Shown here: positions 18,786 to 20,688 of the stretch, in pieces | How positions within the stretch are numbered: position 1 is the first letter of the stretch | Layout of the letters: every line of letters starts with the position of its first letter | Virus record (IMG/VR): IMGVR_UViG_3300036985_001022 | Coordinates: 1 to 21,685 of that record | Strand: one strand, 5' to 3' | Length of the DNA stretch: 21,685 nucleotides | Source: a virus | The notes under the pieces: generated by a model | What the model was told of the DNA's origin: nothing | Database searches by the model: none | Seen by the model: only the letters and a program-made list of their open reading frames with translations | Translations under genes and position numbers: made by a program

Positions 18786-19181
18786 TTAATTTAAAATTCT
18801 AGATATAATTATTCCCAGTATGAGAGATAACAGTACAAATATAAGCCACTTATTTAACTTTTCCTCTACGTATATAATATGTGGCTTAGGCGTAATGGTT
18901 CTAGTCTTAATTATAGTCTTAGGAGATTGAGATATAATCGTCTTTATCAAGTCTTTAACTCGAATTATTTTCACTTTAACACCATTGGTATCAATAACGA
19001 TTGTATCTATTTGTCTTGTTATAACAGACTTCTCAACATAAAATGAATCTCTAACTTTAATAGTATCTGATAACGTAATTGTATCAACCTTACAAATAGA
19101 TGGATTCTTTTTGCAAGCTTGCTTGATATGCCATTCAGCAGAGCAAGACGATATCAATAATATTAAAAATAAATATCTCAT
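18786..19181 (-). CDS. Unimolecular spanin (u-spanin) candidate
   Basis: The 131-aa protein starts with a lipoprotein signal (MRYLFLILLISSC) whose lipobox ISSC predicts lipidation at C13. It ends with a TM helix (WLIFVLLSLILGIIISRIL, about 112-130). The periplasmic part between them is Thr/Ile-rich and beta-like (VDTITLSDTIKVRDSFYVEK; IVIDTNGVKVKIIRVKD). A lipid anchor for the outer membrane at one end and an inner-membrane helix at the other is the design of T1 gp11-type u-spanins, which span the periplasm and fuse the membranes in the last lysis step. It overlaps the holin candidate by 4 bases and follows the endolysin. Two extra cysteines (C23, C30) are near the lipid anchor. Confidence 0.72.
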   Translation of the reverse strand: MRYLFLILLISSCSAEWHIKQACKKNPSICKVDTITLSDTIKVRDSFYVEKSVITRQIDTIVIDTNGVKVKIIRVKDLIKTIISQSPKTIIKTRTITPKPHIIYVEEKLNKWLIFVLLSLILGIIISRILN

Positions 19182-19420
19182 TTATTATTTGTGTATTTAT
19201 CTACTGACGTGAAACCTAAAGACAAAATTACAATCCATTCTATTGACTTAATAAGGTCAGCACTTAATGTAATTTCGTATTCAGATTTTGCATTAAATAT
19301 TAAAGTCCAAAAAAGAATAATAGCACCAATGATTCCTACGAATCTTTTAGAACTCCATTCCCCTTTGTCTCCTTTAAATAATTGGGATACGCTTAAAATC
19401 TTTTTAATTATAGTAATCAC
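19178..19420 (-). CDS. Holin candidate with two TM helices
   Basis: The 80-aa protein has two predicted TM helices, RFVGIIGAIILFWTLIF (about 27-43) and IKSIEWIVILSLGF (about 57-70), with a charged N-terminal part (KGDKGEWSSKR) and a short polar C-terminus. Size, two helices and the place between an M15 endolysin and a spanin fit a phage holin, which makes the inner-membrane holes that release or activate the endolysin. It overlaps the endolysin stop and the spanin start by 4 bases each, so the three are translated as a set. No dual start is obvious. Confidence 0.7.
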   Translation of the reverse strand: MITIIKKILSVSQLFKGDKGEWSSKRFVGIIGAIILFWTLIFNAKSEYEITLSADLIKSIEWIVILSLGFTSVDKYTNNK

Positions 19421-19917
19421 TTCTTGTTAGCTTTAACAGGTTTCTCAGTTTTCTCAGTTTTAGGGGCAGCCATAGGTACGTATACTGTTTTCCCATGTTG
19501 TCTTACTGCTTGCAACATTTGCTTTCTATTACGAATAGAAGAAAAAGAAACGTGAACCCATTCAGGATTCTCATTGCTACCAAATTCCCAAATCAATTGG
19601 TCAAACTCAATATTCTCAGCAATAGCTTTGAATACTTCAGCATTATTCATGTCCATAGAAATATCAGCAGCTTGACCTAATACATGTTGGCTACTAAGTG
19701 CTCCACCAATATATGAATTTAATTGACCACTTCTATACCCACTTGAAATAATAATTGGTTTTTTAATGATTGCTCTCAATGGTTCAAGAACATTCTCGCA
19801 TAAAGCTTTTAAGTTATTAATTACTTTTTCATCATAAGGGGTATTATCAATACCTCTTTTTTTTGCAGTAAGACTATCAGTCATTTCATGCAATTTAAAA
19901 TTTTCAGTTAAATTCAT
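19417..19917 (-). CDS. Endolysin, M15-family peptidase
   Basis: The 166-aa protein has the M15 zinc peptidase signature: SSQHVLGQAADIS with H78 and D85 as zinc ligands, and PEWVHVSF with H122 as the third. ISSGYRSGQLNS (57-68) is the family's substrate-loop motif. The fold covers about residues 1-145; the end is a Lys/Pro/Ala-rich tail with repeated TEK units. It probably cuts the peptide part of peptidoglycan (D-Ala-D-Ala or L-Ala-D-Glu type). No signal peptide is seen, so release needs the holin. It overlaps the 48-aa gene upstream by 4 bases and the holin downstream by 4. Confidence 0.88.
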   Translation of the reverse strand: MNLTENFKLHEMTDSLTAKKRGIDNTPYDEKVINNLKALCENVLEPLRAIIKKPIIISSGYRSGQLNSYIGGALSSQHVLGQAADISMDMNNAEVFKAIAENIEFDQLIWEFGSNENPEWVHVSFSSIRNRKQMLQAVRQHGKTVYVPMAAPKTEKTEKPVKANKK

Positions 19918-20060
19918 TTTCCTTGTCCTTTATATAGTTTTGAATAATTTTTACTTTGTTTCATATTGCTAACTTTTGTTTTAGCATGAATCCCCGGTCT
20001 ACTTACTTTTGGTTTTTGTTTTAATTTTACTTCAACCTTTGATGAGTTTATTTTTGCCAT
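19914..20060 (-). CDS. Unrecognised 48-aa basic protein
   Basis: A 49-codon frame including stop fills the gap between the thioredoxin-like and endolysin genes. It starts MAKINSSKVEVKLKQKPKVS and continues RPGIHAKTKVSNMKQSKNYS, ending KLYKGQGK. Its start shares one base with the upstream stop (TAATG), and its stop overlaps the endolysin start (ATGA), which supports it strongly. It is very basic, with 14 Lys and no acidic residue but one Glu. The RPGIHAKTK and SKNY..YKGQGK patterns recall tiny proteins in other Bacteroidota phages. Nucleic-acid or envelope binding is possible. Function unknown. Confidence 0.75.
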   Translation of the reverse strand: MAKINSSKVEVKLKQKPKVSRPGIHAKTKVSNMKQSKNYSKLYKGQGK

Positions 20061-20419
20061 TATTTTAATATTTTATTTTGTGGTTCAATAATAGACATAT
20101 TTAAACCACCATCAACTCTGCCAATTTCTTTCCCCTCTAGGAAAACTATAACAGTTGGGACTGTAGTTATTTTCATTTTACTTTTTAACTCAGGGAATTT
20201 ATCTAAAGACATATAGTAGTATTTCACTCCAGCCATTGGAACCCACTTATATGTATTTTGTTTATTCCAGTCGTAATTAAATTGAACTACAACTTTACCT
20301 TTGCTAATATCAGGTTGCCCTGATTGAGTTGGTTGAGTTGGTTGAGGTGCATAATGGTGAATTAGCGATGCCGTTGCTAACATAATTGCACTTGAGATGG
20401 CTAAAATAGTAATTTTCAT
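20060..20419 (-). CDS. Exported thioredoxin-fold protein without redox cysteines
   Basis: The 119-aa protein begins with a hydrophobic export or anchor segment (MKITILAISSAIMLATASL) and a PQPTQPTQ linker. A thioredoxin fold follows: KVVVQFNYDW, then TTVPTVIVFLEGKEIGRVDG with the cis-Pro at P88. The active-site position after Trp51 reads NKQN instead of CGPC, and the whole protein has no cysteine, so it cannot do disulfide exchange. It likely acts as a binding or scaffold protein in the periplasm. It overlaps the TM coiled-coil gene by 4 bases and is joined to the 48-aa gene by TAATG. It lies in the lysis cluster, so a role in lysis control or superinfection is possible but inferred. Confidence 0.72.
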   Translation of the reverse strand: MKITILAISSAIMLATASLIHHYAPQPTQPTQSGQPDISKGKVVVQFNYDWNKQNTYKWVPMAGVKYYYMSLDKFPELKSKMKITTVPTVIVFLEGKEIGRVDGGLNMSIIEPQNKILK

Positions 20420-20688
20420 TTCATTAATTTTTCTTCAATTTTTTCAAGACGTTGGTCAAGTTTATCTACTTTCTTGTCAATATTGTCTACCGTTGCTCTG
20501 AGCAATTCATCTTTTAACTTGTATTCCTCAGCTGTAACAGCAGCTTTAGGAAGTTGTTTAGCTTCTTCAATATCTGAAGATAACTTATAGTATACTCCCA
20601 TTGTACTAACAACTCCTGCAATAATAACAATTAAAAATTCAAGATTAATGTTAAATTTAGTCGATTTATTTATTTCTATTGGTTCCAT
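20416..20688 (-). CDS. Membrane-anchored coiled-coil protein
   Basis: The 90-aa protein has one TM helix near the N-terminus (LEFLIVIIAGVVSTMGVYY, about 16-34) and a C-terminal coiled coil (LRATVDNIDKKVDKLDQRLE, then KIEEKLMK). This resembles XhlA-type or i-spanin-like proteins that work with holins at the inner membrane. No lipobox is present. It overlaps the thioredoxin-like gene by 4 bases and lies in the lysis region. It may be an accessory holin or lysis regulator; a tail-associated role is an alternative. Confidence 0.7.
   Translation of the reverse strand: MEPIEINKSTKFNINLEFLIVIIAGVVSTMGVYYKLSSDIEEAKQLPKAAVTAEEYKLKDELLRATVDNIDKKVDKLDQRLEKIEEKLMK

Follow-up and report, generated by a model that had tools for sequence, protein, structure and literature searches.

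The question raised by this locus is whether a 131-aa protein with a lipobox at its N-terminus and a transmembrane (TM) helix at its C-terminus, encoded beside a holin candidate and an endolysin, acts as a unimolecular spanin (u-spanin). The locus lies in the window, the whole stretch of 21,685 nucleotides that was analysed (IMG/VR record IMGVR_UViG_3300036985_001022, positions 1 to 21,685). Judging from its anatomy, the protein probably does act as a u-spanin, and we put the probability of this reading at about 85%. The initial annotation had proposed the same, and it is the reading best supported by the anchors, their conservation and the lysis context; of its accompanying ideas, the T1 gp11 design was borne out for the architecture alone, and a crAss-like phage was not supported. 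The gene has the following parts:

18786-19181, minus strand: candidate u-spanin, 131 aa (ORF list, both anchors, family conservation, AlphaFold2)
19146-19181, minus strand: lipoprotein signal peptide, residues 1-12 (MRYLFLILLISS), with lipobox ISSC (sequence; single possible start)
19143-19145, minus strand: Cys13 codon, predicted lipidated and family-invariant (alignment)
18849-19142, minus strand: periplasmic region, residues 14-111, with a short helix and six predicted strands (AlphaFold2)
19113-19115, minus strand: Cys23 codon, first of a co-occurring periplasmic cysteine pair (alignment)
19092-19094, minus strand: Cys30 codon, second of this pair (alignment)
18792-18848, minus strand: C-terminal TM helix, residues 112-130 (hydropathy; AlphaFold2, helix pLDDT about 90)

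An in-frame TAA stands directly before the ATG of this ORF, so the ATG is the sole start and the signal peptide comprises exactly 12 residues before the cysteine. Such a signal peptide is short, yet the same length is found in 18 unique family members. About 100 periplasmic residues separate the lipobox cysteine from the TM helix. The lipobox and TM helix were assigned from pattern, hydropathy, conservation and AlphaFold2, and both anchors described initially are borne out. This is the only ORF with a lipobox and a C-terminal TM helix among the 19 ORFs of at least 90 aa in the window; first-order Markov random windows contain a mean of 0.01 such ORFs (of 2.1 ORFs of at least 90 aa). Acidic residues after the lipidated cysteine and aspartate at position +2 are lipoprotein sorting signals; neither an acidic surface-export signal nor Asp at +2 follows Cys13 in the window protein.

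A single-sequence search with the window protein found two relatives, and a search with a four-member alignment found at least 272 confirmed members of 599 candidate stretches in IMG/VR, among the matches listed. The resulting set, obtained by the family search suggested at the outset, comprises 68 unique IMG/VR proteins (the window's included) and one contig of a metagenome-assembled genome (MAG); 67 proteins were aligned. The lipobox cysteine is present in all 68 unique proteins, 10 to 30 residues from the start, and invariant in the alignment. A C-terminal TM helix is predicted by hydropathy in every family protein except L116, which is borderline at the threshold used. Among the 67 aligned proteins, the spacing from cysteine to TM helix varies only from 91 to 102 residues and the C-terminal end is always positively charged, and because both anchors are conserved throughout, a chance ORF is untenable. 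The invariant columns are C13, H18, A22, K25, D39, D59, T60 and T89, and the family motif is CSA-x-[WY]-H-x-[KN]-x-A-x-K-K-x-P. The median dN/dS is 0.137 (85 close pairs).

The family is not covered by Pfam or PHROGs. Searches of 50,697 phage records by tblastn gave no match with the window protein and four relatives, and chance matches only with the member L040. A scan of 84,980 bacterial species genomes found the one MAG contig, which belongs to the Sphingobacteriales, and no description of the family was found in open-access papers. The suggestion that the family had been left unnamed is therefore supported. The kind of protein is already known; the sequence family itself and its periplasmic cysteine pair are new. 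A large set of environmental phage proteins outside Pfam and PHROGs thereby receives a name and a testable role, and can help to locate the lysis genes of uncultivated Bacteroidota phages.

In the AlphaFold2 model of the window protein, a helix (residues 15-25) is followed by six strands and the TM helix. As the mean pLDDT is 67.6 and the pTM 0.29, only the secondary structure was used. Its order matches that published for the T1 gp11 family, in which a short helix precedes four or more strands (PMC6139136). Fold searches of BFVD and PDB with the model returned no match that reached E 0.001. The top match in BFVD is unnamed (E 1.5e-3), a lipoprotein of phi17:1 was matched at E 0.27, and neither was taken as evidence.

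Positions 23 and 30 are both cysteine in 30 of the 67 aligned proteins and neither is in the other 37, with a single cysteine in none, although these counts are inflated by the relatedness of the sequences. This all-or-none pattern suggests a disulfide. At least one cysteine beyond that of the lipobox occurs in 49 of the 67 proteins. None of the 58 u-spanins in SpaninDB has a periplasmic cysteine (PMC6139136), a trait that describes the class without defining it, and the pair in the window protein departs from this pattern. A membrane-anchored thioredoxin-like protein is encoded upstream of the endolysin (20060-20419, minus strand; relatives in L046, L095, L096 and L099); it lacks a CXXC motif, and a link to the cysteine pair was therefore dropped.

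The genes around the candidate spanin are as follows:

19178-19420, minus strand: 80-aa holin candidate with two TM helices and a GTG start codon (ORF list, TM prediction; clusters with proteins of other family loci)
19417-19917, minus strand: endolysin, peptidase M15 family (PHROG 894, E 1.4e-39; PF08291, E 2.2e-21)
20416-20688, minus strand: 90-aa protein with an N-terminal TM helix and a predicted coiled coil (weak matches to an Rz-like spanin, PHROG 739, at E 0.026, and to a holin, PHROG 9316, at E 0.03)

Four-base overlaps join the endolysin and holin genes (19417-19420, GTGA) and the holin and spanin genes (19178-19181, ATGA), so that the overlapping endolysin-holin-spanin set reported initially is real. 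The holin candidate has no match in Pfam or PHROGs; its cluster comprises 14 proteins in family loci, 13 of which are encoded directly upstream of the spanin gene. By prediction, the window protein combines an N-terminal lipoprotein signal and a C-terminal TM helix in one chain with a gene in the holin-endolysin cassette, three of the features by which u-spanins are classed; a u-spanin also spans both membranes and is required to disrupt the outer one, a role that the window protein would share. The nearby 90-aa protein is possibly a second holin or an i-spanin-like partner, and in the latter case the 131-aa protein could serve as the o-spanin of a two-component pair, its C-terminal helix being an inconsequential second anchor. 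The TM helix, coiled coil and weak Rz-like match of the 90-aa protein agree with this, as do proteins of similar build upstream in many family loci, but its matches are scattered over many unrelated coiled-coil families. An o-spanin is a lipoprotein without a C-terminal TM helix, whereas the helix of this family is retained even though identity to the window protein drops to 21-40%. An o-spanin is thus an unlikely explanation, and a u-spanin is preferred.

Across the 70 family loci, many of them incomplete where no enzyme was seen, a lysis enzyme or likely lysis enzyme is encoded on the same strand in 39 (M15 in 15, Amidase_2 in 14, GH108 in six, PHROG 3000 in three and DUF5675 in one), and a holin candidate in 35. 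The M15, GH108, DUF5675 and amidase names derive from Pfam matches of representatives; PHROG 3000 and DUF5675, both without an assigned function, were presumed to be lysis enzymes from their position, the former also from a motif. In L120 (3728-4309), and also in L133 and L137, the gene of the PHROG 3000 protein is flanked by those of a two-TM protein and the spanin. This PHROG 3000 protein has an L,D-transpeptidase-like NIHKAG...SEGC motif, read by eye, and may be an unrecognised type of endolysin. The cassette of the Sphingobacteriales MAG (L202, 4627-6374) encodes a holin candidate, a 109-aa protein, DUF5675, a 97-aa protein and the spanin, which hints at a lytic role for DUF5675.

This coupling to a holin and an endolysin, together with the other membrane-anchored proteins found at the same place in sister phages, also speaks against a receptor-blocking or superinfection lipoprotein encoded among the late genes, like T5 Llp or the Cor proteins. 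Three members do match a Cor superinfection-exclusion PHROG weakly (best E 0.012), but matches of this size can arise from the signal peptide alone. To our knowledge, proteins of the Llp/Cor type have no conserved C-terminal TM helix, and such a function is very unlikely here.

A second gene context is found in about a third of the unique members, many of them on siphovirus-like contigs. Here the spanin gene is directly behind portal and adaptor genes, in the order portal, 170-aa protein, spanin, and an amidase is encoded 3 to 4.5 kb downstream of the spanin, not in a tight cassette. Although a virion or assembly protein might be expected at such a position, a lipoprotein signal and a TM helix are ill-suited to the virion of a tailed phage, and the remaining two thirds of the family are not beside portal genes. 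Furthermore, the four portal-adjacent records that were read at length encode an Amidase_2 protein downstream on the same strand, and we regard a virion role as exceedingly improbable. A search for M15 in 16 records (portal-adjacent and other contexts) found none. Portal-adjacent members, among them L113, L122, L130, L142 and L145, have a conserved N-terminal extension (MES.KKPYKPK.DKVEKL..VY) before the signal peptide; as their ORFs are open upstream, translation may begin at either of two starts. A stretch similar to this extension forms a separate short ORF in L001.

Points counted for a u-spanin are therefore the conserved anchors, the T1-like strand order, the holin/M15 coupling, the lysis enzymes and holin candidates of other family loci, the sister-phage proteins with a lipobox and a C-terminal TM helix, the dN/dS and the lack of a surface-export signal. 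Those counted against it are the 12-aa signal peptide, the low pTM, the failure to detect homology to any spanin tested by experiment, the portal-adjacent third with its distant amidase and the 90-aa protein, which could be an i-spanin. The sequence shows the two anchors, their conservation and the lysis genes around them; lipidation, sorting, topology, bridging and fusion are inferred. If the protein is a u-spanin, lysis would begin with the opening of the inner membrane by the holin. The M15 endolysin would then cut the murein, freeing the spanin bridges to cluster. The beta-rich middle of the spanin would collapse, the inner and outer membranes would be brought into contact and fuse, and with this final step of lysis the outer membrane would no longer be a barrier.

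The window TerL is most similar to that of MW202828, a 60-kb podovirus (74% identity), followed by Elemovirus (44%), phi18:3 of the Pachyviridae (38%), Calle of the Pervagoviridae (37%), and Gundel (30%). Matches to Crassvirales TerL are partial and marginal, with about 22% identity and E values no better than 4e-4. Judged by this protein, the phage is Elemovirus/Pachyviridae-like rather than a member of the Crassvirales, and the crAss-like link drawn initially is not supported. From the TerL relatives and the Sphingobacteriales contig, we infer a Bacteroidota host.

Among phages that share 72-77% TerL identity with the window, the lysis region encodes this family in the window, L040, L046 and L063, and instead a lipobox and C-terminal TM protein like gp49 of Flavobacterium phage 11b in L011, L012, L016, L024, L029 and L057. 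The L011 protein shares PHROG 5885 with gp49; the other five were grouped with it by eye. The lysis region of MW202828 (L085) has, in place of the spanin family, a protein of a family with an N-terminal TM helix, a DT-rich middle and four predicted C-terminal strands (KRQLY.GGGL...LMYKNKKDQMYG...), here termed N-TM/C-beta, whose genes adjoin those of a holin and an endolysin (L085 5488-6111, L195 1037-1660, L196-L199 4001-4612, L200/L201 3929-4555 and possibly L084 6198-6743). AlphaFold2 predicts a TM helix and four strands at low confidence, and its members are possibly spanins whose anchors are reversed, with beta strands as the anchor in the outer membrane. It is a tentative and rather doubtful idea that 60-kb Bacteroidota phages swap unrelated single-chain bridges of opposite polarity at the spanin position. 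One kind, lipid-out/TM-in, would comprise the window family and the 11b type; the other, TM-in/beta-strands-out, would comprise the proteins of MW202828 and L195-L201, with a four-stranded C-terminal sheet as the outer membrane anchor, possibly closed into an oligomeric barrel. If true, this exchange would constitute a new spanin architecture, and the swapping of unrelated bridges at a single locus would point to selection on membrane linking and not on a particular sequence.

Bacteroidota-phage u-spanins have been known since 2018, when SpaninDB listed several from phages of Cellulophaga and Flavobacterium (PMC6139136). According to a survey of 2025, u-spanins are the only spanins used by Bacteroidetes phages (PMC12596118). 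Bartlau et al. give no spanin for Calle or Gundel (PMC8776804), and a Crassvirales review mentions spanins among the late genes (PMC10136315). The remark that spanins are rarely annotated in crAss-like and related phages needs this correction: u-spanins are known in the host group. The T1 gp11 design suggested initially is correct for architecture alone. Like T1 gp11 (PHROG 1804; SpaninDB T1 family), the window protein has an N-terminal lipobox, a C-terminal TM helix and a short helix followed by strands; it is similar in length (131 vs. 133 aa) and likewise encoded at the end of a coupled lysis cassette. T1 gp11 matches PHROG 1804 at E 9.7e-45, whereas the window protein has no match and 25 of the 67 aligned members match weakly (best E 2.5e-4). 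In the members that were rescanned without the signal peptide these matches disappeared, so they were not used as evidence of homology, and hhalign of the family against T1 gp11 was not significant (probability 5.6%). No sequence similarity is found outside the signal peptide region, and membership in the T1 family is not supported by detectable homology of the periplasmic domain. T1-type phages also mostly use a pinholin and SAR endolysin (PMC6139136), whereas no signal sequence was seen in the M15 endolysin of the window. Flavobacterium phage 11b is a u-spanin singleton in SpaninDB (PMC6139136), and gp49, from its place beside the endolysin, is presumably the protein meant. It too has a lipobox and a C-terminal TM helix, with homologues in the lysis region of sister phages such as L011, but belongs to a separate sequence family (CGSRKV start, lysine-rich middle), and the window protein does not match PHROG 5885. 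The u-spanins of Cellulophaga phages phi13:2 and phi18:3 come from TerL-related phages with lysis genes just upstream of TerL; no phage record has a sequence match to the window family, and the endolysin is of another type (GH108-like in phi13:2). Finally, the N-TM/C-beta proteins have reversed anchors and no profile similarity to the window family (hhalign 4%), but resemble it in their DT-rich middle, their place beside holin and endolysin genes and their occurrence in a sister phage.
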